Origin: a virus
Direction: 5' to 3' (one strand)
Length of the DNA: 30,333 nucleotides
Virus record (IMG/VR): IMGVR_UViG_3300030104_002258
Span: 1-30,333 of that record
Below the pieces are notes generated by a model, which worked only from the letters and a program-made list of their open reading frames with translations, had not been told where the DNA came from and ran no database searches. Below, one piece after another: positions 10,358-29,728 of the stretch. How positions within the stretch are numbered: position 1 is the stretch's first letter; every line of letters starts with the position of its first letter. Position numbers and translations under genes: made by a program.

Positions 10358-11791
10358 TTATATCCACTCTTTTAATTCTTCACCCATAACTTGACTAGCT
10401 ATATTTATTTTTTCACGTAAAGCTTTTACTATTCTTTCATCAACAGTATCTTTGCATATTATATCTATATAGGTCATAGGATATTTCTGACCTATACGAT
10501 CTATTCTGGCTTGAGACTGTGTTCTTTTTTCAAGATCATAACCATTAGAGTAATAAATCATATTACTAGCTGCAGTTAGTGTAATACCATAACCACCCGT
10601 TGCAGGTGTTCCAACAAAAAATCTACACTCAGGATCTGTTTGAAATTTATTTATATTACCTTGTCTTTCTTCTTTAGGTGTTAATCCATAATAATCTACA
10701 ACAGATTTTTCTCCATACTCTTTTACTATTGCTTTTATTATTTGGGTCATGTCTTTTTGCCAGTGGCCCCATATAACAACTTTACCTTCTATCTCACTTA
10801 ACACATCCACTAATTCGTCAATACGATTATTAGGTATCTCTTGAGTAGAACCATCGTCAGCTGTAAAATGTCCACAAGTTATTTGTTGTAATCTCATGAG
10901 TTGAGTCATTACAGTTGTGGTGCTAACCATCTTACCATTCAATACTGCTAAAGCTTTTTCTTTCATTTGTAAATATAGCTTAGATTGATCTGGGCTTAAC
11001 TGCACTATACGTTTAATAAATGTTTTCTCTGGTAGATCTAAACAATCATCTTTTAATACACGATAAGAAAAAGGTTCTAGCTTTGCAGATAATTCACCTA
11101 AGTTTCTATAACCAACAACAATCTGTACCGTCCTGCCATTAAAGTTTGCATTACGCATCACAGCATATCGTGTTCTAAATCCATAATAAGAAGCGTGTCC
11201 TAAGAGCCAAGAATCGAGAAACTGGCACTGTGTATATAAATCTAATGGTGACTTTGTTACAGGAGAACCTGTAAGTATTCTTCTATACTTAGAATTTTTA
11301 GCAAGATCTAAAATATTTTTTGTGCGTTTAGCACTAGGGTTTTTGATTGTAGTAGATTCATCTATTGCAATTAAAGTATTATGGCAGTTTAAAAATTTAC
11401 TAGCAAAGGCCACACCTTTTTTAGTAGAGAATGCTTCTACATTCATTATTAAAATATGTAACTCTTCTCCTGCTTCAAATAAAGTATCTAATTTTTTTTC
11501 TTGACTTTTAGTAATCATGGCTTGCCACAACACCATTTTTTTATCTATATGATCCACTAGGTGTGTAGGTATCTCAGAGTCGTGCCAGTTTTGATAAACA
11601 CCTTTTGGTGCTATAATTAAGGCAGCATTTATTTTACCTTTGTCGTAAAGCATTGATATATTGTCTATTAATACCTTTGACTTACCTGTACCCATTTCCA
11701 TAAAATAGGCGTAAACTTGTTTCTCCCAAGACTTTTCTAACGCAGTTAATTGATGCGCGTATGGCTTTGTCTTAAACTTATAATTAATCAT
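10358..11791 (-). CDS. SNF2-family (SF2) DNA helicase/translocase
   Basis: 477 residues with a full SF2/SNF2 motif set: MGTGKSK (Walker A, 33-39), DEST (Walker B, 144-147), LTGSP (motif III, 173-177), TGGYGITLTAA (motif V, about 398-408) and QSQARIDRIGQ (motif VI, 425-435). Motif VI with RIGQ is the SNF2/Rad54 signature. No accessory domain is visible, so it is a minimal ATP-driven dsDNA translocase, presumably cytoplasmic. Small phage SNF2 proteins may remodel replication or recombination intermediates or strip host proteins from DNA; which applies here is unknown. It is transcribed opposite to its neighbours from the divergent promoter at 11811-11843, with an 18-base leader carrying only a weak AGAAAGAAG ribosome site. 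Confidence 0.9.
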   Translation of the reverse strand: MINYKFKTKPYAHQLTALEKSWEKQVYAYFMEMGTGKSKVLIDNISMLYDKGKINAALIIAPKGVYQNWHDSEIPTHLVDHIDKKMVLWQAMITKSQEKKLDTLFEAGEELHILIMNVEAFSTKKGVAFASKFLNCHNTLIAIDESTTIKNPSAKRTKNILDLAKNSKYRRILTGSPVTKSPLDLYTQCQFLDSWLLGHASYYGFRTRYAVMRNANFNGRTVQIVVGYRNLGELSAKLEPFSYRVLKDDCLDLPEKTFIKRIVQLSPDQSKLYLQMKEKALAVLNGKMVSTTTVMTQLMRLQQITCGHFTADDGSTQEIPNNRIDELVDVLSEIEGKVVIWGHWQKDMTQIIKAIVKEYGEKSVVDYYGLTPKEERQGNINKFQTDPECRFFVGTPATGGYGITLTAASNMIYYSNGYDLEKRTQSQARIDRIGQKYPMTYIDIICKDTVDERIVKALREKINIASQVMGEELKEWI

Positions 11792-12232: not shown

Positions 12233-12764
12233 ACAAGACAGAGTACAATCTGTAACTCAAGCAGACACAGCTGAAAGTTTGTCTAGTAAAGTTATAGAAT
12301 TAAAAAATTTAGAAGACGAGATTGCAAACGCAGAGAAAAGTGTTTCTAAATTAAAAGAACAAGCAAAACAATTATCTCAATTTGAAATACCTGAGATGAT
12401 GGAGAAAATGCATATTACAAAATTAAAGCTTAAGGATGAAGAAGTTATAGAAATAAAAAAATTCTATAGTGCCTCTATCTTACCTGAGAATCAGGAAAAA
12501 GCTTTTCAATGGCTTCGAAACAATGGCCTAGGTGACATCATTAAAAACGATGTTACCGTTACCTTTGGTCAAGGCGAAGACAACAAGGCGAGCAAATACG
12601 CGGACCTTGCAAAAGGTCAAGGATATGAACCAGTCCAGAAGATAGGGGTTCATGCCATGACACTTAAAGCAGTAGTCAGGGAGCGTCTCGAATCTGGACG
12701 TGAGATGCCCTCTGATCTATTTAAAACTTACGCGGGTAACAGTACAAAAATCACAAGGAGATAG
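12213..12764 (+). CDS. Conserved coiled-coil protein of the replication operon
   Basis: 183 residues from MSQIDYEQDRV. The start is set by AGAGG ending 8 bases upstream; an ATG at 12195 lies inside the previous gene and has no such site. Residues about 20-70 form a coiled coil (SSKVIELKNLEDEIANAEKS and on), then a globular half with QWLRNNGLGDIIKNDVTVTF, GQGEDNKASKYADLAK and MTLKAVVRERLESG. Proteins with this WLR..G.GD..KN..TV.FG.GED layout sit next to ssDNA-binding proteins in several phages; the function is not established. It overlaps the previous gene by 20 bases and the next gene follows after 2 bases. Confidence 0.7.
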   Translation: MSQIDYEQDRVQSVTQADTAESLSSKVIELKNLEDEIANAEKSVSKLKEQAKQLSQFEIPEMMEKMHITKLKLKDEEVIEIKKFYSASILPENQEKAFQWLRNNGLGDIIKNDVTVTFGQGEDNKASKYADLAKGQGYEPVQKIGVHAMTLKAVVRERLESGREMPSDLFKTYAGNSTKITRR

Positions 12765-13547: not shown

Positions 13548-15086
13548 ATGAAAGAGTTAAATAAATTTATATATATTTTTGAAGGTTTAGATATTGCCCA
13601 CGGCATTACCAAAAAAAGTAGTCAAGTAAATGAGAAGGGTAAAAATGAAACAAGATCTTTTACCGTGCATAAACCACCTATTGAAAAATTATGGCAAGAT
13701 CATTTAGAAGGTAAGGATCCTGGCTTAGGTATCATTCCTATTAACAGAGACAATAAATTAAAATGGGGTTGTATTGATGTAGATGTATACCCTGTAAATC
13801 ACCAAGACTTTATTAAAAAACTACAAGAAAAAAATATTAAAGCAATAGTATTTCGTTCCAAATCAGGTGGAGCCCACATATTTGTTTTTACAAAAACGTT
13901 TGTCCCAGCCATTGTAATGAGAGCCAAGTTAAAAATAATAGCATCAGAAATTGGTTATGCAAGAGCAGAGATATATCCTAAGCAGGATACTATCAACGTA
14001 GCTAGAGGAGACACAGGAAGTTTTTTAAATCTACCTTATCATAATTGCAAAGACTCAGTAAGATACGCATTTAATTCTAAGGGGATGAAAATGTCTCTAG
14101 AAGAATTTTTTGATTACCACAACGAAATGGCTATGACAGAAGAAGAGCTAACTAATTTTGCCATTGTAAATGAGAAAGAAAATTTAGATTATTTTAAAGG
14201 TATGCCTCCATGCTTAGTTACTTTATTAAGCGATGGAGTTCCAAACGGACAGAGAAATAATTGTATGTATAATGTTGGTGTATACCTTAAAAAAAGATAC
14301 ACACAAAACAATGAATGGAAAGGTCGTATGCATATATACGATGAAAAATTTATGAAGCCACCGCTGGGTGCAAATGAAATTGATGTATTAAAAAAATCTC
14401 TCGATAGTAAAGAGTATAGATACAAATGTAAAGATGAACCAATATCTAGTTTTTGTAATGCAAAAAAATGTGCAACAAAAGAATTTGGTATAGGAGAAGA
14501 TGGGCCTACTTTAGAAATTACAGAAATTAGAAAGTATGAATCTGAACCACCAATCTGGTTTGTTTCATTAGATGGTCCCACAGTAGAAGTAGATGGAGCC
14601 ACACTTCATGATGCAGAGAAATTTTCTGTGGCATGTATGGAACAGATTGGAAAACCTTTAATGCCCGTACCTAAACATGCGTGGCGAAAAGCATTAATAA
14701 AATTAATGGTAAATGCTAAACCAATAACTGCTCCAGAGTCCTCTAAAATAAGTGTGCAATTGACTGAGATTTTGTCAGAATATATTAATAAAACACCAGG
14801 TCGAGATAAAGAAGACATTTTAAGAGGTGTTGCCTTTACTGATAAAAACGGCATAACCATGTTTAAGTTCTCTAATTTTTGGAAATACTTACTAAGAACA
14901 AAAACTTGGGCAGACAAGACGTATCCAAAACAAAAAACATTAAGGATGTTGCAACAGTTATTTAAAGCAACAGAAACTAGTCCAAAAATAGATGGTAAGA
15001 CACATAGAGTTCTAGAAATGAACCACGTTAATTTAGATAAACCATCTACAAAAAAATATGAAATGGAGAAAGAACCATGGCAGTAA
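13548..15086 (+). CDS. Archaeo-eukaryotic primase (AEP) with PriCT-like C-terminal region
   Basis: 512 residues. The N-terminal domain has the AEP catalytic pattern: DVD at 77-79 (metal-binding acids), SGGAH at 106-110 (the S-x-H nucleotide-binding motif, preceded by FRSK), then EIYPKQD at 141-147 and LNLPYHN at 160-166, which resemble AEP primases of the TOTE-conflict and herpesvirus-like branches. Residues about 218-310 hold PPCLVTLLSDGVPNGQRNNC and a Cys set (C294, C303, C308, perhaps with C222) that could bind Zn. The rest is helical, as in PriCT regions that link primase to helicase. It should make primers for the PolA encoded 3 kb downstream. It overlaps the helicase gene by 10 bases. 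No helicase domain is fused to it, unlike T7 gp4. Confidence 0.8.
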   Translation: MKELNKFIYIFEGLDIAHGITKKSSQVNEKGKNETRSFTVHKPPIEKLWQDHLEGKDPGLGIIPINRDNKLKWGCIDVDVYPVNHQDFIKKLQEKNIKAIVFRSKSGGAHIFVFTKTFVPAIVMRAKLKIIASEIGYARAEIYPKQDTINVARGDTGSFLNLPYHNCKDSVRYAFNSKGMKMSLEEFFDYHNEMAMTEEELTNFAIVNEKENLDYFKGMPPCLVTLLSDGVPNGQRNNCMYNVGVYLKKRYTQNNEWKGRMHIYDEKFMKPPLGANEIDVLKKSLDSKEYRYKCKDEPISSFCNAKKCATKEFGIGEDGPTLEITEIRKYESEPPIWFVSLDGPTVEVDGATLHDAEKFSVACMEQIGKPLMPVPKHAWRKALIKLMVNAKPITAPESSKISVQLTEILSEYINKTPGRDKEDILRGVAFTDKNGITMFKFSNFWKYLLRTKTWADKTYPKQKTLRMLQQLFKATETSPKIDGKTHRVLEMNHVNLDKPSTKKYEMEKEPWQ

Positions 15087-16621
15087 TCAGAAAAAAAATA
15101 ATGGGTCCACCAGGCACAGGTAAAACTTACAGGCTTGTCAATCATTATTTAAACAAAGAGATTAATGACCTACATACAGATCCACAGAAGATAGCTTATG
15201 TTACTTTTAGTAGAGCTGCAGCTTTAGATGGTGCAGAAAAAATTCAAAAAGTTTTTCCCGAAGTTGAACTTTTATATGTATCAACGCTTCACGGCATAGG
15301 AACCAAAGAACTAGCAATTAATACTAAAGAAAAATTGTTAAACGGTAAGAAATGGAAACAGTTTAAAAATGTATTTCCAATTTATTCTGCCGTAAACTTT
15401 GATACTTTTATTAACGAAAGCGGAGCCACCATACATCAAGATAAGAATTTACAGGTTATAAATTATGCTAGAGCAAAATTGATTAGTCTACAAGAAGCTT
15501 CTATACAATTAAATTATCATCAAGGCTCTGTAGATATATTTTTTGTAGAACAATTAGAAAGAGATATTGAATATTATAAGAAATCAAATGTTATGTATGA
15601 GTTCTCTGACATGATTAAACTATTTGTTGAGGAAAAGAAACATCTTGCTCTCGATGCAATTTTTCTTGATGAAGCCCAGGATCTGAATCCTCTGCAATGG
15701 AATATGTTTTTTTACATTGAGTCAAGATGTAAACGATCTTACATTGCAGGGGACGACGACCAAACAATATATAATTTTCAAGGTGCAGACTCTAATATTT
15801 TTATAGACTTAGATGGAGAAAGAGACGACCAAGAAAAGTCTTACAGAGTTCCAAAAGCAGTGCATAGAAAAGCCTTAGAGATACTACCTTACATAAGTAA
15901 ACGAGTAGATAAGAAATGGTACCCTAAAGATGAAGAGGGAGAACTTATTGAAAACTGTTACTTAGAAGAGCTAGATTTTAATGAAGGAGAATGGATGATT
16001 CTAGCAACAACTAATAAATTACTAAAAGATTTTTCAGAGCATTTTTATAGAAAAGGTTTAAGAATTTTTGGTAAAGGAAACACTATCCTACCACAAAAAA
16101 CTTTAGAAGCTTATAGAACTTGGAACAAATTAAATAACGGAGAACTAGCAACAGTTGAAGAAACAAAAAATATGTGGACTTATTTAAACTACAATAAGAA
16201 TCATATTAAGTATGGTTATTCTAGCGGCAAAACATTAAGCAGTGAGGAAATAATATCTTTAGATATTTTAAAAAAGAAACATGGTTTGTTAATTGAAGGT
16301 GATTGGCAACAGTTAAGCTTTGATGAAGATGTAAAAAAATATATAAAAAGTATTTTAAAAAGCGGTGATGATTTATCAACAGATCCAAGAATAGAATTAT
16401 CTACCATACACGGAGCCAAAGGTAGAGAAAGAGAAAATATTGTTTTGTGTATAGACTACGGAACAGAAACACAATCAACAATGTTAGCACAAAAAGCAGC
16501 TGAAGATCCAGACTCAACACACAGATTGTTTTTTGTTGGAACAACACGGGCGATGAAAAGGTTGTATATTTTATCACCTTTAACAGCGCACTACTACACA
16601 ATAGGAGGACAAATAATATGA
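15077..16621 (+). CDS. UvrD/Rep-like superfamily 1 DNA helicase
   Basis: 514 residues with the full SF1A motif series: GPPGTGKT (10-17), TFSRAAA (43-49, motif Ia), DEAQD (198-202), GDDDQTIY (225-232), YRVP (256-259), LSTIHGAKGRE (441-451) and RLFFVGTTRAMKRL (483-496). It is shorter than UvrD or Rep (about 670-720 residues) because the 1B and 2B insertions are reduced. The reaction is ATP-dependent 3'-5' unwinding. Overlap with the primase and proximity to the polymerase suggest it is the phage's replicative or fork-restart helicase, since no DnaB-type helicase is seen; this is inference. GGAGG near its end serves the next gene. Confidence 0.9.
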   Translation: MAVIRKKIMGPPGTGKTYRLVNHYLNKEINDLHTDPQKIAYVTFSRAAALDGAEKIQKVFPEVELLYVSTLHGIGTKELAINTKEKLLNGKKWKQFKNVFPIYSAVNFDTFINESGATIHQDKNLQVINYARAKLISLQEASIQLNYHQGSVDIFFVEQLERDIEYYKKSNVMYEFSDMIKLFVEEKKHLALDAIFLDEAQDLNPLQWNMFFYIESRCKRSYIAGDDDQTIYNFQGADSNIFIDLDGERDDQEKSYRVPKAVHRKALEILPYISKRVDKKWYPKDEEGELIENCYLEELDFNEGEWMILATTNKLLKDFSEHFYRKGLRIFGKGNTILPQKTLEAYRTWNKLNNGELATVEETKNMWTYLNYNKNHIKYGYSSGKTLSSEEIISLDILKKKHGLLIEGDWQQLSFDEDVKKYIKSILKSGDDLSTDPRIELSTIHGAKGRERENIVLCIDYGTETQSTMLAQKAAEDPDSTHRLFFVGTTRAMKRLYILSPLTAHYYTIGGQII

Positions 16622-18817: not shown

Positions 18818-19468
18818 ATGGCTTACTTAAACTCAAACATACCAGCGACTTATGCGCAAATAAGAAGAGAATATTTATACGATTGTAAAAAACATCATGG
18901 AGAAGTTGAAGACTGTATTATCTTTGGTATTAGCTCTATTGCAGGTAGCGCACTTTTATTTCATGCAATTATGGAGAATGGCGCAATCTTTTATAGACTA
19001 CCTATTACAGCTTTTATTCAAAGAGGATTTAAACCGGAAGATGTACCCACACGAAGACTTGATGAACTTCAGTTGTGGAATTGTTTTAGTTATTATCCTG
19101 CTGTTTGTTCTTGGGATATAATTCAAGGAACATCTGGTAAATACATAGGTAAAGATAAAAAATGGCATCACGGAAAATATTTATTTACCGTTGACTTTGC
19201 ACATCCAGAGAGTAATATATTAGACACCGAACATTCGGAGATACCGCACGAACATAAGTGCGCTCACATACTTGCTTTAAATGATGGCAACTATGCAGCA
19301 CAACCAAACAACAGACTGATCTGGGACTTACCTTCTTTCACAGTGAAAGATAATATTCCTGATTGGAAAGTTCAAACATCAGAGTGGAATGTAGAAGACT
19401 CTGGTAAATGGAAAACAGAAGATACTGATAATTTCTTTTATGAGATAGAGGAGAAGAAAAATGATTGA
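18818..19468 (+). CDS. Conserved phage protein of unknown function, His/Trp-rich
   Basis: 216 residues. The N-terminal half is hydrophobic and helical (CIIFGISSIAGSALLFHAIM, residues 33-52, then FYRLPITAFIQRGF). The second half is rich in Trp, His and Asp: WDIIQGTSGKYIGKDKKWHH, FTVDFAHPESN, HEHKCAHILALNDGNYAAQP and a Trp-containing acidic tail. Similar proteins follow the DNA polymerase in cyanophages and pelagiphages; I know no function. Clustered His and Asp could bind a metal, but no family motif is recognised. Spacing to the polymerase stop is 5 bases with a weak ribosome site, and it overlaps the next small gene by 8 bases. Confidence 0.7.
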   Translation: MAYLNSNIPATYAQIRREYLYDCKKHHGEVEDCIIFGISSIAGSALLFHAIMENGAIFYRLPITAFIQRGFKPEDVPTRRLDELQLWNCFSYYPAVCSWDIIQGTSGKYIGKDKKWHHGKYLFTVDFAHPESNILDTEHSEIPHEHKCAHILALNDGNYAAQPNNRLIWDLPSFTVKDNIPDWKVQTSEWNVEDSGKWKTEDTDNFFYEIEEKKND

Positions 19469-19565
19469 TAATATTTGGAAAAAAATAACAATGCCTGAGC
19501 AAAAAACTTTATTAGTTTACAGATGCATAGTAGTTGCATCAATAATAATACTTTACTTAGGTTAA
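19461..19565 (+). CDS. 34-residue single-span membrane peptide
   Basis: A short gene with a good ribosome site (GAGGAG) inside the end of the upstream gene. It encodes a basic N terminus (MIDNIWKKITMPEQK) and a hydrophobic segment (about residues 16-34: LLVYRCIVVASIIILYLG), so probably a one-span inner-membrane peptide with N-in topology. The stop overlaps the next ATG (TAATG). Being in a tight chain with correct start signals argues for real translation; the function is unknown, and small membrane peptides beside envelope genes can be holin-like or superinfection-related. Confidence 0.55.
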   Translation: MIDNIWKKITMPEQKTLLVYRCIVVASIIILYLG

Positions 19566-19660
19566 TGGGAAAAAAACTTTGTAGTAAATGTCATCATCCT
19601 TGCCATTGTGGTGAGGATAATGACTTACATGCGGACGAGTATGAGAACGAGGTTAAATAA
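19565..19660 (+). CDS. 31-residue Cys/His-rich (zinc-binding-like) peptide
   Basis: Starts in the TAATG overlap after the membrane peptide and ends in another TAATG overlap with the following gene. The first half is MGKKLCSKCHHPCHCG, a dense Cys/His cluster (C6, C9, C13, C15 and H10, H11, H14) able to bind one Zn ion; the second half is acidic (EDNDLHADEYENEV). It is too small for a named family. The one-base overlaps on both sides support translational coupling and a real gene. Confidence 0.5.
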   Translation: MGKKLCSKCHHPCHCGEDNDLHADEYENEVK

Positions 19661-23767: not shown

Positions 23768-23882
23768 AGCATTTGTAGAGAGGCCAAAGCCTAGAAAACG
23801 TCCACGTAGGCACAGTAAAAAACTAAACAAAAACGTTAAAAGAAGTAGCAAAAAATACAACCGTCAAGGTCGTCCACAATAG
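23751..23882 (+). CDS. 43-residue highly basic protein
   Basis: Encodes MARKFKAFVERPKPRKRPRR, then Lys/Arg-rich sequence to the stop (SSKKYNRQGRPQ). Almost half of the residues are Lys or Arg, so it should bind nucleic acid. Similar tiny basic proteins (MARKFK..V.RPKP.KRP) recur in marine phages. It overlaps the zinc-ribbon gene by 17 bases with no strong ribosome site, so expression probably depends on coupling. A strong promoter starts right after its stop. Confidence 0.6.
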   Translation: MARKFKAFVERPKPRKRPRRHSKKLNKNVKRSSKKYNRQGRPQ

Positions 23883-23911
23883 TTGACTGTCCTCCCAAAA
23901 TATCCTATACT
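23883..23911 (+). promoter_or_regulatory. Sigma70-type promoter for the small-gene block
   Basis: TTGACT (23883-23888), a 17-base spacer and TATACT (23906-23911): five of six matches at each element with optimal spacing. The predicted start near 23918 gives a leader of about 46 bases that contains a possible small hairpin (GGGCA at 23933-23937, TGCCC at 23954-23958 in opposite orientation) just before the ribosome site AAAGGAG of the gene at 23964. Confidence 0.7.
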
Positions 23912-23963
23912 GATTCGTTCCTGGGCATGAACTAGATAATAACTGCCCGTAAGAAAGGAGCAT

Positions 23964-24330: not shown

Positions 24331-24442
24331 CCTCTGTGATATATTGAGACTACATCTTACAACTTATCATGACTATCCTGTTAACGCTCACGTTATGAAA
24401 GATGGTAGTGGTGAATTTTATGGATGTATGTGTAAAGATTAA
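24230..24442 (+). CDS. Small conserved phage protein of unknown function
   Basis: 70 residues from MELILLNDGLYQLVAVTKQM. AAAGGAGG ends 6 bases upstream, a near-perfect ribosome site that decides this start over an ATG six bases earlier. The sequence continues with LLLGKADCFDLCDILRLHL, TTYHDYPVNAH and GSGEFYGCMC, a compact mixed fold with four Cys. No family is recognised. Its stop overlaps by four bases with the end of the minus-strand gene that converges on it. Confidence 0.7.
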   Translation: MELILLNDGLYQLVAVTKQMTEGMLLLGKADCFDLCDILRLHLTTYHDYPVNAHVMKDGSGEFYGCMCKD

Positions 24443-24654
24443 GTAGTGATATCTTCTCTACATTCAAATAGAATAGTGGTTCTATATTTTTCCATGTCTT
24501 CAACAGACATGTTGTTTAATACATTTGATGAGTAATCATAACCAAACACTGCACAGTCTTTATAATTATCAAAAACTTTCTGTGTTACCACACCTGGTAT
24601 ACATTGTTGAGCAACGCTACTACACATCCACACGAATATAATAAATTTTGTCAT
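24439..24654 (-). CDS. Small exported protein, minus strand
   Basis: 71 residues from MTKFIIFVWMCSSVAQQCIP. AAGGGA six bases upstream on the minus strand supports this ATG over a TTG two codons earlier. The hydrophobic N terminus (FIIFVWMCSSVA) is a likely signal peptide; the body has DNYKDCAVFGYDYSSN and ends in TILFECRED, with Cys residues that could form a disulfide outside the cytoplasm. The pattern resembles tiny exported proteins of cyanophages. It is an isolated minus-strand gene inside a plus-strand run, diverging from the ribbon-helix-helix gene and converging with its left neighbour. Confidence 0.6.
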   Translation of the reverse strand: MTKFIIFVWMCSSVAQQCIPGVVTQKVFDNYKDCAVFGYDYSSNVLNNMSVEDMEKYRTTILFECREDITT

Positions 24655-24681
24655 TGACAATCCCTTAGAAAATTATATATT
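24654..24681 (+). promoter_or_regulatory. Sigma70-type promoter for the ribbon-helix-helix gene block
   Basis: TTGACA (24654-24659), 16 bases, TATATT (24676-24681): the same hexamers and spacing as the plus-strand half of the promoter at 11811-11843. The -35 overlaps the start codon of the minus-strand gene. The predicted start near 24688 gives a leader of about 25 bases with AAAGGA (24698-24703) nine bases before the ATG at 24713. Confidence 0.65.
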
Positions 24682-24712
24682 ATCCTACATCAAATATGAA
24701 AGGATACATTAT

Positions 24713-25604: not shown

Positions 25605-26288
25605 GTGACAGAAAAAATACGTCTAGATTATCAGATGTTTAGATGGGGCCCGTTGTTGGTTAAGTTTAAAATACCTGATGATATACGTAAGAAACTTTTA
25701 AGCGAAGCACAAGCAAGTAGTAAAGACTACGAAAAGAATCTCGCAGGTGTCATCACCAAGGAGGTAGGGTTTAGAGATATAGAAATGTTTCAACCTTTCT
25801 TTCATACTGTCTTTGAGATGTATGCTAACGCGCAGTCTAAGTGGGCACCAGAGGTAGGTGCAACTATTGACACCTTTAGACAACAGTATCTAATCGAGGC
25901 GTTGTGGGCAAACTTTCAAGGACCCGGAGACTTCAACCCACCCCACGATCACGGTGGTAGTTTGTCTTGGGTTATATTCTTACAAATGCCGAAAGAGTTA
26001 ATAGAAGAGAATAAAAAATACCAAGGCCGTAGTGCTGGTCCTGGTGGATTAACATTTATATATGGTGAAGGATCAAGGAATTATATAAGTCATCATTCTT
26101 TTTTTCCTGAAGAGGGAGATATGTTTATCTTTCCTGCATCGTTAAAACATTGGGTGTTTCCGTTCAAGAGTGATTGTGTGCGTATATCTGTATCAGGTAA
26201 CGTCAATGATTCTATTAAATGGAAGGATCTTAAAAAGGTAAAGGAGGTTAAGAAAGATGAACAAGACAACAGTAAAGAGAGTGATTAA
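25605..26288 (+). CDS. 2OG-Fe(II) dioxygenase-like protein
   Basis: 227 residues from a GTG start (AAGGAAGG region upstream). The double-stranded beta-helix core shows FNPPHDHGGSLSWVIFL (H114, D115, H116), FIYGEGSRN, GDMFIFPASLKHWVFPF (H182) and R193 in VRISVSGN, the usual order of iron ligands (HxH/HxD, then H) and the 2-oxoglutarate-binding Arg. Phage members of this family, common in marine cyanophages, are thought to hydroxylate proteins or nucleic acids; the substrate is unknown. A second member lies at 29066. The C-terminal 30 residues are Lys-rich and overlap the next gene. Confidence 0.8.
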   Translation: MTEKIRLDYQMFRWGPLLVKFKIPDDIRKKLLSEAQASSKDYEKNLAGVITKEVGFRDIEMFQPFFHTVFEMYANAQSKWAPEVGATIDTFRQQYLIEALWANFQGPGDFNPPHDHGGSLSWVIFLQMPKELIEENKKYQGRSAGPGGLTFIYGEGSRNYISHHSFFPEEGDMFIFPASLKHWVFPFKSDCVRISVSGNVNDSIKWKDLKKVKEVKKDEQDNSKESD

Positions 26289-26475
26289 ACGTCAGTTTAA
26301 TGCTGTCATAGATGAGGAGAAGAAGTTACGTAAAGTCTTAAGTATGGAAACGAACGACGAGCATCCGGAGGCATTGTTTAGTGGTTTATATACGAGGGTC
26401 GAGCAACACCTAGATGAGATTAATAAACTACAAAATAGAATTGTAGTGTTGCAAGAAATAGCAGATCCTGAATGA
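26257..26475 (+). CDS. Small helical protein of unknown function
   Basis: 72 residues with AAGGAGG nine bases upstream, one of the strongest ribosome sites in the window, lying inside the end of the oxygenase gene (32-base overlap). The sequence is charged and helical (RQFNAVIDEEKKLRKVLSME, then RVEQHLDEINKLQNRIVVLQ), probably a coiled-coil dimer. No family recognised. It ends in an ATGA overlap with the LAGLIDADG gene. Confidence 0.6.
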   Translation: MNKTTVKRVIKRQFNAVIDEEKKLRKVLSMETNDEHPEALFSGLYTRVEQHLDEINKLQNRIVVLQEIADPE

Positions 26476-26894
26476 AGGATACTGACATAGCTTATATCGC
26501 TGGTTTATTTGATGGCGAGGGTAGTATTCAATACAAACAATACATGAGAAAGCGATCTCATAACAAGAAACCATACCCCACCTGGAGTATTAGAATGGAG
26601 ATGGCCATGACGGACCAATCTATTCTGCGTTGGGTCCACGAGGTGTTGGGTGTTGGCACAGTTGGTGAGAAGAGATACAAAACCCCCTATGCTGTTGGCT
26701 GGAAGAAGCAGTGGCGTTGGCGTTGTCAATTTAGAGACGCGTTCTATGTTTCTTGTGCTTTGTTTCCGTATGCTCATGTGAAGATAGAAGGTATACAAAA
26801 AATTATAAATCATTACTCAGACCGCAAATTAAAAGTATTAAACGATAAGGTAGTGTCTCTTGATGAATACAAACAATACATGAGTTTAGAATGA
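26472..26894 (+). CDS. LAGLIDADG-type protein (free-standing homing-endonuclease fold)
   Basis: 140 residues. IAYIAGLFDGEGSIQ (6-20) is a single LAGLIDADG motif with the acidic catalytic position in DGEG (D14/E16). Single-motif members act as homodimers that cut long asymmetric sites. The rest is basic and Trp-rich (GWKKQWRWRCQFRD), fitting DNA contact, and VLGVGTVGEKRYKTPY resembles the beta-strands of the DNA-binding saddle. It overlaps both neighbours by 4 bases (ATGA), so it is part of the operon rather than inserted in an intron; it may be a mobile endonuclease that has become a resident gene or a repurposed DNA-binding protein. Confidence 0.75.
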   Translation: MKDTDIAYIAGLFDGEGSIQYKQYMRKRSHNKKPYPTWSIRMEMAMTDQSILRWVHEVLGVGTVGEKRYKTPYAVGWKKQWRWRCQFRDAFYVSCALFPYAHVKIEGIQKIINHYSDRKLKVLNDKVVSLDEYKQYMSLE

Positions 26895-27577
26895 AGTGGA
26901 ATAAATTATATAAATACCCTAAGACCGTTAGATCTAATATAGACGGCACTAGGAGATATGAAGTGGGTGACGAGAAACTACCGTCTGTCACGACTATTAT
27001 AGCAGGGACGCAGAGCGAAGAGAAGACGGAGAGCTTGGCTAGGTGGAAAGATAGGGTCGGTGCTACGGAGGCCGATAAAATTAAAAATAAGGCTGCTCTA
27101 CGGGGCACCGCGATGCATAGTTATTTGGAAACTCACCTCAAAGGTGGCAATGTGCTAGATTTGACTGACTTGGGACAAGAAGCGAGAGGCATGGGACAGA
27201 TGATTATTGATAAAGGTTTTCCTGATTTAGAAGAGATCTGGGGTGTTGAGTGCACGCTACACTATCCTGGGTTGTATGCAGGCCAGACTGATATGTGTGG
27301 GATTTATCAGGGGCGCGAAAGTATAATAGACTTTAAACAATCGAACAAGCCCAAACGTGACGAGTGGATAGAAGATTATAAGATACAGCTGGTGGCATAT
27401 GCTATGGCCCACGACCAAGTCTACGGGACGAGCATCGAGCAGGGAGTGATCTTGATGTGTACACCAGATAATTTCTTCCAGCGTTTTATTGTCAACGGAG
27501 CAGAGTTTAGAAAATGGAAATGGGAGTGGTTGAGACGTATTGACGCATATTATGGCAAGAATACGGCTAAATCATAA
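26891..27577 (+). CDS. PD-(D/E)XK exonuclease, RecB/Cas4-like
   Basis: 228 residues with a textbook nuclease core: RGTAMHSYLE (H76), GVECTLHYPGLYAGQTDMCG (E120, D134), IIDFKQSN (D147, K149) and YKIQLVAYA (Q166, Y170). The metal-binding set H-E/D-D-K-QxxxY is that of RecB-type and Cas4-type exonucleases. There are no iron-sulfur cysteines, so it is not a true Cas4. The N-terminal LPSVTTIIAGT is usual for phage members. It probably acts on DNA ends for recombination, or degrades host DNA. It overlaps the LAGLIDADG gene by 4 bases and stops just before the TTCCACA-box region. Confidence 0.85.
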   Translation: MKWNKLYKYPKTVRSNIDGTRRYEVGDEKLPSVTTIIAGTQSEEKTESLARWKDRVGATEADKIKNKAALRGTAMHSYLETHLKGGNVLDLTDLGQEARGMGQMIIDKGFPDLEEIWGVECTLHYPGLYAGQTDMCGIYQGRESIIDFKQSNKPKRDEWIEDYKIQLVAYAMAHDQVYGTSIEQGVILMCTPDNFFQRFIVNGAEFRKWKWEWLRRIDAYYGKNTAKS

Positions 27578-27579
27578 AA

Positions 27580-27846
27580 TTGCCACAATCAAAAATGTGG
27601 AAGCTAGTGTCAAAAACCCGCATAAAATGAACATTTGCCACATTTTCCACATTTTTAAAATGGAAAATGTGGAAGCTAGAACCGTTGGTATATATAGCAA
27701 ATAGTATGTTTTCCACGTTTTCCACATTTCTCTTCCCAAAATCGGACCGAGGTAGGTGAAAAATATTTTAAGTATTAATGTAGAAATGTGGAAAGTGTTA
27801 TATACCAATGCTTTTAACAAAATGGCTTCCACATTTTTATGTGGAA
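27580..27846. repeat. Iteron-like cluster of about ten TTCCACA boxes; candidate replication origin or operator array
   Basis: The 286-base gene-free stretch between the exonuclease and the next gene carries ten copies of a TTnCACA-type core. Direct: 27580 (TTGCCACA), 27634 (TTTGCCACA), 27643 and 27718 (TTTTCCACA), 27709 (TTTTCCACG), 27827 (TTCCACA). Inverse (TGTGGAA): 27596, 27668, 27787, 27840. Pairs at 27634/27643 and 27709/27718 are contiguous 9-base tandem repeats. TTTTCCACA fits the relaxed DnaA box TTWTNCACA. An 11-base perfect inverted repeat (27645-27655 and 27664-27674) adds hairpin potential. Role as origin or repressor array is inferred. Confidence 0.7.
27592..27679. repeat. 16-base direct repeat pair within the box cluster
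   Basis: AAAATGTGGAAGCTAG occurs at 27592-27607 and again at 27664-27679, exactly 72 bases apart. Both contain the inverse box TGTGGAA extended by GCTAG. The perfect extension beyond the core implies a longer protein site or recent duplication. Confidence 0.75.
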
Positions 27847-27859
27847 GGAAATATATAAT
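27826..27859 (+). promoter_or_regulatory. Palindromic box pair abutting a TATAAT element
   Basis: CTTCCACAT (27826-27834) and ATGTGGAAG (27839-27847) form a perfect 9-base inverted repeat around TTTT, directly followed by a consensus -10, TATAAT (27854-27859). No TTGACA-like -35 is present; the palindrome covers that place, so a protein bound there would either recruit or block RNA polymerase. The next ATG is at 27864/27867. Confidence 0.5.
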
Positions 27860-27863
27860 TAGC

Positions 27864-28019
27864 ATGATGACAGAAAAAGATTTTTGGGATAAATTTAACT
27901 TTAAACACAATCCGAGATATTATCATGCCAAAAAGAAGACAGAAGAGAAAAACAAAAAGAAGAGTGAGGAACAAGAAAACTATCCCACTCAATTTAAAAT
28001 CTTTAGGAAACAAGATTGA
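27864..28019 (+). CDS. Small Lys-rich protein (tentative)
   Basis: 51 residues (or 50 from the adjacent ATG at 27867): MMTEKDFWDKFNFKHNPRYY, then a Lys/Glu-rich tail. An upstream in-frame ATG at 27756 would read through the palindromic boxes and is less likely. The ribosome site (AAGGAA) is 13 bases away. The last 95 bases overlap the next gene in another frame, and that part may be only a shadow of its Lys/Arg-rich start. The first 20 codons look like protein and lie just after a TATAAT element, so I keep it with low confidence. Confidence 0.4.
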   Translation: MMTEKDFWDKFNFKHNPRYYHAKKKTEEKNKKKSEEQENYPTQFKIFRKQD

Positions 28020-28269
28020 AGCATACCCATTTGTAGAAATAGAGTGGTGTGATATCGAGGGCGATGCAGGTTGGTCCGATACTAAATCATTAAACAAAGA
28101 AGAGTTACCGACTTGTGTATCAAAAGGTTATCTTGTTAGTCAAAAGAATGGCGTTACTAGAATATTTACTGACTATATAAAAACAAAAAATAAACCTACG
28201 TTTGATAGTATTGGTAATACAACCATCATTCCAACAGCCGTAATACAATCTATTAAAAAAATTAATTAA
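27925..28269 (+). CDS. Small conserved phage protein with basic N terminus
   Basis: 114 residues. The first 25 are extremely basic (MPKRRQKRKTKRRVRNKKT), likely to bind nucleic acid. The rest is a compact domain (YPFVEIEWCDIEGDAGWSD, LPTCVSKGYLVSQKNGVTRI, TTIIPTAVIQSIKK) whose VEIEW.DI..DAGW core is familiar from marine phages, without known function. It lies just downstream of the TTCCACA-box cluster, making it one candidate for the protein that binds there; this is guesswork. It converges with the terminase small subunit gene, overlapping by 8 bases, with no terminator between. Confidence 0.65.
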   Translation: MPKRRQKRKTKRRVRNKKTIPLNLKSLGNKIEAYPFVEIEWCDIEGDAGWSDTKSLNKEELPTCVSKGYLVSQKNGVTRIFTDYIKTKNKPTFDSIGNTTIIPTAVIQSIKKIN

Positions 28270-28786
28270 GTTTTTTTAGTTTTGGAAGTCTTGATTTTTT
28301 AACTTTTTCTTTTACTTCTTTGGTGATATCTTTTACTCCAACGCCTTCAAGTATAGGTGAGTATTGATCTACAATCTCTTTCATCCTCGTCTCTAGTTCC
28401 TCTGCACTCAAGTCATCAATCTTACCGGTCCTAATAATTTTCTGTTCAACGTAAAGTCCAGCAGCTTTACCACGTGCAACTTCTGCATTGGTTGCAGCAG
28501 AGAAGGCTCCTTTTCTTAATGCGTTTTCTCTAATCTTGGCAAGCTCCGTAATGTGTCTCTCAAAAGTAACGGCATACTTTTTTTGATTCTCTTCACGGAG
28601 TTCACCAATGTATTTAACTACGAGAGGGTACTTCTTGGGGTTCTGTAATTCATATGCTCTAATCCTTGCCGCCTCACCATATCCAGCCTCTTTAGCACAC
28701 TCTGTGCCATTCATTCGGCCTTCATTGGCGACAATTAATTGAGCAAATTTGATTTGCTTTTCAGTTAATCTTTTTGGAACTCCCAT
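28262..28786 (-). CDS. terS: Terminase small subunit
   Basis: 174 residues from MGVPKRLTEKQIKFAQLIVA. The frame opens 12 codons earlier, but the promoter's -10 ends 7 bases before this ATG, so the message is probably leaderless. The N-terminal part (LTEKQIKFAQLIVANEGRMN, then ECAKEAGY) is the helix-turn-helix of terminase small subunits that recognises the packaging site; residues 55-125 are the helical oligomerisation region (EENQKKYAVTFERHITELAK, GAFSAATNAEVARGKAAGLY), and IDDLSAEELETRM with a Lys-rich tail would contact the large subunit. It directs DNA packaging into procapsids. The large subunit is not in the window. Confidence 0.8.
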   Translation of the reverse strand: MGVPKRLTEKQIKFAQLIVANEGRMNGTECAKEAGYGEAARIRAYELQNPKKYPLVVKYIGELREENQKKYAVTFERHITELAKIRENALRKGAFSAATNAEVARGKAAGLYVEQKIIRTGKIDDLSAEELETRMKEIVDQYSPILEGVGVKDITKEVKEKVKKSRLPKLKKLN

Positions 28787-28789
28787 ATG

Positions 28790-28823
28790 TTGACGTATAG
28801 AGTAATTTAAGGTACAAGTCAAA
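28790..28823. promoter_or_regulatory. Second mirror-symmetric divergent promoter pair
   Basis: Minus strand: TTGACT (28823-28818), 17 bases, TATACG (28799-28794), ending 7 bases before the terminase ATG (28786). Plus strand: TTGACG (28790-28795), 17 bases, TACAAG (28813-28818), ending 8 bases before the ATG at 28827. The arms form an imperfect palindrome (TTGACGTATA against TTGACTTGTA). Each -10 overlaps the other strand's -35, as at 11811-11843. Neither gene has a convincing ribosome site. Confidence 0.6.
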
Positions 28824-28826
28824 TCA

Positions 28827-29066
28827 ATGATAGATGCAAAATTAATACGTCAAGTATTAGATAAGTTTTTGAAAGCAGAAAATGTTAAGTCTGCCCGTAT
28901 GCAGGTCATGACACTTGATGGTGTGTTTCATGATATTAAATCAATTAAACTTCTAGAAAATCAAATAATTGGTGCAAGAGAAACACATAGAATTGTTATT
29001 GAAGTCATACCTGAGAAGGCCCCCATGGGTAAAGTTATAAAAGATCACGGTGGAATTATACTTTAA
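28827..29066 (+). CDS. Small conserved phage protein of unknown function
   Basis: 79 residues: MIDAKLIRQVLDKFLKAENV, a beta segment (SARMQVMTLDGVFHDIKSIK) and GARETHRIVIEVIPEKAPMG with a polar end. It looks like a small alpha/beta domain. The only ribosome-like sequence (AAGG) is 14 bases upstream and the predicted plus-strand transcription start lies on the ATG, so leaderless translation is likely. It overlaps the next gene by one base (TAATG). No family recognised. Confidence 0.6.
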   Translation: MIDAKLIRQVLDKFLKAENVKSARMQVMTLDGVFHDIKSIKLLENQIIGARETHRIVIEVIPEKAPMGKVIKDHGGIIL

Positions 29067-29728
29067 TGAGTGATTTACACTCTTTCTCTTTATTCGATAC
29101 CATACTTTATAAAGCAGATCTTCCAGAGTATTTAAAAAATAAAGACTTCATGTCTGTTTGTGACGAATATACAGACAAGGCTATATCAAATAAACAAAAA
29201 TCAATTGATGAAAGAAATAAAAAATTTAAAACAGATGTTAAGGATCATGGTATGTCTTATCACTCAAGCGCTGAGATGTATAAGGATGAACGATTTAATA
29301 ATTTTGAATTGTTAATTAGAAACACGGCTAGAAATATATTAGAAAATCAAGGTTTTGATTTGTCAGATTACTCTATTGACTACACTGAGATGTGGATTCA
29401 AAAATTTGCGCATGAAGGTGGAGGTCATCAAGATACGCATGTTCATTGGGATAATCATATCTCAGGTTTTTACTTTGTTGAGTGTTCAGATCGAACCTCC
29501 AAGCCTGTGTTTCATGACCCTCGTGCAGGTCGTATGATGCTTAATCTTCCAATCAAAGATCATAGTAAGCTATGTCCCGCAATGGAACGGCAGATTGTTT
29601 CTGTAAAACCTGGTACATTGTTATTATTTAATTCTTGGTTGCCTCATCAATTTAGTGTCGACAATGGCATTGATCCGTTTAGATTTATACATTTTAATTT
29701 GCAAGCAAAAAGACATGGCCAGAAATGA
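29066..29728 (+). CDS. 2OG-Fe(II) oxygenase of the cyanophage type
   Basis: 220 residues. The C-terminal half holds the jelly-roll core: YTEMWIQKFAHEGGGHQDTH, then HVHWDNHISGFYFVEC (H125, H127, D129 as iron-ligand candidates), PVFHDPR, VKPGTLLLFNSWLPHQF (H194) and R206 in PFRFIHFN. HxHxxxxxSGxYYv with a late H and R is the pattern of the putative 2OG-Fe(II) oxygenases frequent in marine cyanophages. The substrate is unknown; proline or nucleic-acid hydroxylation are both considered. The N-terminal 80 residues are charged and variable. It is distinct in length and motif spacing from the oxygenase at 25605. It overlaps the nuclease gene by 14 bases. Confidence 0.8.
   Translation: MSDLHSFSLFDTILYKADLPEYLKNKDFMSVCDEYTDKAISNKQKSIDERNKKFKTDVKDHGMSYHSSAEMYKDERFNNFELLIRNTARNILENQGFDLSDYSIDYTEMWIQKFAHEGGGHQDTHVHWDNHISGFYFVECSDRTSKPVFHDPRAGRMMLNLPIKDHSKLCPAMERQIVSVKPGTLLLFNSWLPHQFSVDNGIDPFRFIHFNLQAKRHGQK

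Follow-up and report, generated by a model that had tools for sequence, protein, structure and literature searches.

A repeat array with changing box words in a relative of HTVC023P-type pelagiphages is a candidate phage replication origin

The DNA analysed here (the window) is a 30,333-base fragment of a phage related to the HTVC023P-type pelagiphages; the Pelagibacter phages HTVC027P and HTVC023P match it at 68–74% at the DNA level, in short stretches. It contains an intergenic region (27578–27863, no strand assigned) that runs from the stop of an exonuclease gene (26891–27577, plus strand; phrog_298 in PHROGs) to a small basic ORF (MTEKDFWDKFNFKHNPRYY..., 27867–28019, plus strand) seen in many relatives. 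We set the limits of this gap at 27578–27863 because the small ORF of the relatives starts at 27864/27867. The ORF overlaps, in a different frame, the start of p114, a 114-aa gene (27925–28269, plus strand; phrog_25889) that forms the right neighbour of the gap and is followed by the gene of the terminase small subunit, TerS (28262–28822, minus strand; phrog_51). The p114 proteins fall into two classes, 79–100% or about 27–41% identical to that of the window, with HTVC023P intermediate (65%); the low-identity class also turns up where the exonuclease is 83–90% and TerS 92–95% identical, for example in L008 and L010. Directly 5′ of the exonuclease gene lies a LAGLIDADG-type endonuclease gene (26472–26894), which matches a PHROGs family named HNH endonuclease.

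The replication genes of the window include an SNF2-type SF2 helicase (10358–11791, minus strand), an AEP primase (AEP-TOTE; 13548–15086, plus strand) and a UvrD-type helicase (15077–16621, plus strand) adjoining the primase. Elsewhere, the window carries two distinct 2OG-Fe(II) oxygenase genes (25605–26288 and 29066–29728) and a gene at 18818–19468 whose PHROGs family is labelled ferredoxin, whereas the HTVC027P gene at the same place is annotated PurM; one of the two labels is likely wrong. The gap between the exonuclease and the small ORF had originally been described as the only sizeable gene-free stretch. It is the longest, yet the ORF list holds three further gaps between plus-strand ORFs treated as genes (24443–24712, 19469–19659 and 23768–23963), the first of which is possibly filled by a minus-strand ORF (24439–24660).

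Within the gap, positions 27580–27846 hold a dense array of short boxes on both strands: seven copies of TTCCACA, starting at 27645, 27720 and 27827 on the plus strand and at 27596, 27668, 27787 and 27840 on the minus strand, two copies of TTGCCACA on the plus strand (27580 and 27635), and one TTCCACG inside TTTTCCACG at 27709. The ten core copies on both strands of the original prediction are thus reached if the one-off TTCCACG is counted, and the architecture it described is likewise present. Two 9-base tandem pairs (27634–27651 and 27709–27726) are spaced 75 bases apart, an 11-base perfect inverted repeat with an 8-base gap occupies 27645–27655 and 27664–27674, and a 9-pair stem with a 4-base loop is located at 27826–27847.

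A longer form of the box, TTCCACATTT, occurs exactly six times in the window, every copy inside the gap: at 27593–27602 (minus), 27645–27654 (plus, second of a tandem pair), 27665–27674 (minus, on the left side of a core sequence discussed below), 27720–27729 (plus, second of a tandem pair), 27784–27793 (minus) and 27827–27836 (plus, left arm of the 9-pair hairpin). The first members of the tandem pairs are the variants TGCCACATTT (27636–27645, plus) and TTCCACGTTT (27711–27720, plus, on the right side of the core), and the right arm of the hairpin holds a further TTCCACA box (27840–27846, minus). In 2000 shuffles of the gap, TTCCACA occurred on average 0.063 times and at most twice. Across the whole window the word is found nine times against 4.4 expected, a count that was reached in 3 of 100 shuffles; thus, it is the clustering rather than the number that is unusual. 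The window thus shows the grouping of a single short word in one spot that characterises iteron-type replication origins. The gap is scarcely more AT-rich than the genome (GC 0.325 versus 0.354), and a 78% AT stretch lies within the array at 27757–27816.

We then compared the corresponding region in relatives. IMG/VR searches yielded 59 loci with the exonuclease as query, and of the 272 obtained with TerS the best 80 were used; p114 was found in 91 of 144 sequences (window included), and the DNA upstream of its homologue was taken. Thirteen duplicate loci and all loci without a p114 match were left out before counting, the regions of L097 (2 bases) and L004 (own array region used instead) were dropped, and those of W01, W03 and G063 were added by hand after their repeats had been seen. 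The resulting 79 regions, cut 700 bases before the p114 match and in some cases including a bit of p114, formed 50 non-redundant groups below 92% identity. A region was scored as significant if no more than 2 of 200 dinucleotide shuffles attained the count of its commonest 7-letter word.

A repeated word was found at the corresponding place in 31 of the 50 regions at this threshold (27 of 50 at 0/200), or in 28 of 47 without the three hand-added regions; the box enrichment that had been anticipated at the syntenic gap of relatives is thus borne out. The other 19 regions lay above the threshold; for six of these the value was 80/200 or worse, and the six include HTVC027P, in which boxes are visible by eye (array at about 14.8 kb) and the commonest word is without significance. 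About 14 different words can be read in the 31 regions: TTCCACA, TTACACA, TTCTACA, TTCTACT, TTGACAG, TTCGACACC, GCGACAT, GTCACCT, GTTGTAC, GTTACAA, ACTTACA, AGTTCCA, TTCCTAG (HTVC023P) and TGGCACA (023Pt_psg01). In the parts of 13 records that were covered, the local word, as taken from the array, was most densely clustered at the array itself in 13 of 13, and second clusters contained 0–2 copies, except for four in G045. HTVC023P additionally carries, between TerS and p114, a 33-base unit repeated three times in tandem (12469–12567), unlike its own box array, and L069 lacks about 116 array bases that are present in L065, a stretch with four boxes.

The words change on a scaffold that is partly conserved. 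Among TTCCACA types, box positions and strands mostly agree, with two layouts that have 43 or 52 bases between the boxes flanking a core sequence, TTGGTATATA. In the window, this core lies between inverted boxes (27685–27694, plus) and has a second, inverted copy (27799–27808, minus); in relatives, it is often flanked by inverted box sets. It occurs exactly in 13 of the 50 regions, compared with 0.25 in mononucleotide shuffles, and with at most one mismatch in 23, compared with 5.5 (maximum 12). Two further elements recur: TTGCCACAA (27580–27588, plus) has exact copies in 10 of 50 regions, among them TTGACAG types (mononucleotide shuffles 0.12, maximum 2), and CCGCATAAAA (27618–27627, plus) in 14 of 50 (0.05, maximum 1). 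All three sequences were picked by eye before counting. Since TTGCCACAA recurs across word types, the TTGCCACA copy at 27580 is probably a fixed element apart from the switching boxes.

One pair of genomes captures a change of word within an otherwise similar array. The arrays of the window and L060 are 84% identical, and the same third-letter C-to-A change is seen in five of the seven TTCCACA boxes, namely those at 27593–27602, 27645–27654, 27665–27674, 27827–27836 and 27840–27846, the last of which also has T1 changed to C; the C is kept in the two boxes at 27720–27729 and 27784–27793, which are the same in L060. When the six box differences were placed at random, an equally concentrated pattern arose in 0 of 200,000 trials. 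Independent drift can hardly account for such a concerted change, which would be explained by a shifted acceptance of the binding protein and equally by conversion among boxes. Taken together, the word switching, the shared elements and the concerted change argue for one sequence-specific binder of changing specificity that reads the array, and against the host DnaA; a reader encoded by the phage is favoured.

The best candidate for this binder is the AEP primase, through a predicted C-terminal winged helix (residues about 399–495; 14742–15032, plus strand). The AEP catalytic domain is recognised by Pfam (PF22548, E 2.9e-12), and an AlphaFold2 model of the protein shows an N-terminal AEP fold with a Z of 20.8 to CAPP Prim-Pol, a helical middle part and the winged helix. 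A PriCT_1 domain scores 17.2 bits, below the Pfam cut-off of 21.1, and is helical in the model. Predicted alone, the winged-helix domain reaches a mean pLDDT of 87.7 and a pTM of 0.81. Structurally, it comes closest to TcpK (Z 8.7 over 88 residues, 2.5 Å); next, at Z 6.7 each, are a cyclic-nucleotide regulator and Wadjet JetABC, followed by SaPIbov1 Rep (6.4) and SCCmec Cch (6.2); many ordinary winged helices are also among the matches. The similarity to TcpK and Rep is structural only (5–11% identity, Z 6–9, best Foldseek E 0.024), and as such Z values may reflect a common fold, it provides a lead rather than proof. Searched by sequence against PDB chains, the primase gave no match at E ≤ 10.

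We further asked how the box word relates to the replication proteins, using 15 genomes with a primase and a nameable box, among them HTVC027P on boxes named by eye only. An exonuclease was present in 4 of 25 further primase contigs, and a usable array in G063 only. In alignments of nine or ten genomes, box-group-specific columns are most numerous in the primase (18 of 512, including the start methionine), followed by UvrD (8 of 514, including two gap columns), SNF2 (7 of 477) and PolA (5 of 651); two smaller proteins have 4 of 240 and 4 of 216, and five proteins have none. Private primase residues number 20 in the same-box genome G063 and 14, 7 and 5 in three different-box genomes, a mild lean, and the corresponding numbers for UvrD are 11 versus 6, 1 and 1.

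Overall primase identity does not follow the box word across the 15 genomes, and covariation of the primase with the box is not demonstrable. The winged helices of G003 and G009, which have different boxes, are 57% identical, compared with 47% for G003 and G063, which have the same box. The window and G003 share their word, and by segment their primases are 62–69% identical, compared with 96% for the SNF2 helicases. A helix motif, YPKQKT, was noted by eye in five of six TTCCACA genomes and is absent from G063; many primases of unknown box contain it as well, and hence it proves nothing. The AEP primase and the UvrD helicase are the fastest-diverging replication genes, and their segment (13548–16621) resembles an exchanged block when compared with G003 (SNF2 helicase 96%, primase 64% and UvrD 52% identical). 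The p114 protein is an unlikely reader, as L008 has the same box at 34% p114 identity and L060 another box at 92%.

Our preferred reading is that the gap is a phage replication origin, with boxes read by a phage protein, the primase being the likeliest; we put its chances at about even. This reading is supported by the inverted boxes around an AT-rich core, by the single main cluster per record, by the location of the replication genes, which lie in the same block upstream of the array, and by a matching type of reader. Under this model, a phage-encoded sequence-specific protein would bind the many copies of TTCCACATTT in the cis-acting gap, where inverted boxes frame the shared AT-rich core TTGGTATATA. 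Loading of such an initiator would be followed by opening of the DNA, either at the core or in the 78% AT stretch, and the phage primase, helicases and PolA would then start at the opened site. The AEP primase itself may be recruited through its predicted C-terminal winged helix, in the manner of the C-terminal domains of SaPI Rep and SCCmec Cch2 on iterons. In evolution, box word and binder specificity would shift together while the scaffold stays.

The near-ordinary AT content weakens this reading, as do the 19 regions above the shuffle threshold, the lack of a clear array in 23 TerS loci without a p114 match, the weak agreement between primase and box word, and the GC skew. An inflection had been proposed as a check, and no overall turning point was seen at the array in HTVC027P, HTVC023P or 023Pt_psg01; this fits either one-way replication or the lack of an origin. 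A local skew dip of about 2–4 kb just right of the array, over minus-strand genes, is present in HTVC027P and 023Pt_psg01. From the original proposal of a phage origin or master operator, we retain the pair of readings and abandon the part that invoked host DnaA.

As an operator, the array would be bound cooperatively by a phage regulator that controls the small ORF, p114, the exonuclease and TerS, with no role in replication; we regard this as possible, if rather unlikely. Temperate phages are known to have operators with several sites and variable words. In the window, the array separates gene blocks and closely precedes the small ORF and p114, and six promoter-like sites are found in 27400–28000, compared with 2.3 (sd 1.6) in shuffles. 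However, Pfam revealed no HTH repressor in 30 of the 38 window ORFs treated as genes or in ten ORFs right of TerS in the relative G013, and neither Pfam nor PHROGs detected a phage repressor in the scanned proteins, with about half of the phage genome covered. In addition, second box clusters of at most two copies in 12 of 13 records give no sign of a regulon, and inverted boxes around a shared core are more origin-like.

A packaging site (pac or cos) bound by the nearby TerS is improbable. TerS is encoded in all listed loci but L009, L030 and L047, and in HTVC023P the array (11672–11776) lies directly 5′ of TerS, grouped with TerS and p114, with the exonuclease elsewhere. Yet the helix-turn-helix of TerS is near-identical (I/V changes) in TTCCACA types, in the TTACACA types L075–L080 and in the TTCTACT types L083, L084 and L023, and it varies within TTCCACA types (L012 and L013). 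TerS is thus an unlikely word reader, its helix-turn-helix being nearly unchanged across three word types. Moreover, 23 TerS-bearing loci without a p114 match have no clear array near TerS (300-base windows, judged without shuffles). Several loci of a more distant group have GC-rich GCTTGCG-like runs about 1.2–2.5 kb past the TerS start, for example at about 9250–9450 in L123 and 6800–7000 in L139; we set these runs aside as an array because of their high GC content and, in the single locus inspected, their overlap with ORFs.

It is more improbable still that the inverted boxes are stems of transcription terminators or RNA hairpins instead of protein sites: the 9-pair stem has a T-rich tail on the minus strand (27847–27826) and two terminator-like sites compare with 0.5 in shuffles, but boxes that are direct or widely spaced change in concert too. 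Finally, initiation of phage replication by host DnaA bound to the boxes is very hard to uphold, as the relaxed DnaA box TTWTNCACA, matched by the two copies of TTTTCCACA, occurs four times in the window against 5.6 by chance and fits only two array boxes, the conserved flank is 3′ (TTT) whereas a DnaA box has a 5′ TT, and the word is not kept in relatives, whose words include TTGACAG, TTCGACACC and GTTGTAC, even though DnaA specificity is, to our knowledge, nearly universal.

If the origin reading is correct, the array would mark the start point of replication for a widespread group of ocean phages, and its many words on one scaffold would offer material on how a winged-helix DNA code changes and how phage origins diversify. 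We tentatively extend it, with less than even confidence, to the proposal that HTVC023P-type pelagiphages and their relatives have about a dozen origin/initiator specificities on one scaffold, read by a primase that recruits itself to the tandem boxes through a TcpK/SaPI-Rep-like winged helix, and that concerted rewriting of this code recurs, possibly as an escape from satellites, homing nucleases or co-infecting phages. The LAGLIDADG homing-type endonuclease gene near the array (26472–26894) has only a putative connection to word switching. The main text of the HTVC023P-type genome paper, which reports 80 complete Podoviridae genomes, does not contain the terms "origin of replication", "intergenic" or "skew" (PMC9599517), and the four publications found to combine "pelagiphage" with "replication origin" concern other subjects, judging by their titles.

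Several known systems offer parallels. A possible driver of word switching, by analogy, is suggested by the phage ICP1 and its satellite PLE, where the origin-directed nuclease Odn is thought to select for change in iteron and initiator (PMC8263062); in contrast to the phage studied here, PLE is a satellite element with a RepA_N initiator, and an origin nuclease acting on this phage is hypothetical. The oriT of plasmid pWBG749 resembles our array in being one cis-site with several subtypes, with SmpO as the cognate binder; there, the specificity of the binder is not mirrored by its overall identity and can be switched by a single residue (PMC8136818). That system differs in that it serves plasmid transfer, has five subtypes and has a binder proven by experiment.

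Other parallels concern the reader. NrS-1 primase-polymerase is likewise a phage AEP primase and depends on an 8-nt recognition sequence, of which, unlike here, the genome has two copies and no array; it also has its own helicase domain (PMC7102993). Initiator primases such as ColE2 Rep and the RepE/RepS type share the AEP domain, a PriCT-1-like helical part and a C-terminal HTH/WH with the predicted architecture of our primase (PMC5862659). ColE2 Rep is reported to be able to unwind DNA with its PriCT-1 and HTH parts, and a C-terminal WH has been proposed to recognise origins in an AEP family with PriCT or Zn domains (PMC5862659); in our case, PriCT_1 falls below the Pfam cut-off and origin binding is a proposal. 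TcpK, the winged helix that the primase domain most resembles in fold, recognises a tandemly arranged 9-nt box in the transfer origin of pCW3, oriT, reminiscent of the tandem 9-base boxes here (PMC6137059). It differs in being a separate small protein of a conjugative transfer origin, with boxes 3 nt apart and 11% sequence identity. The SaPI Rep and SCCmec Cch2 origins have, like our array, multiple short intergenic repeats, and these iterons are read by the C-terminal domain of the replication protein. That protein is a helicase whose gene directly precedes the repeats, whereas the candidate here is a primase encoded about 12.5 kb away (PMC7581432).
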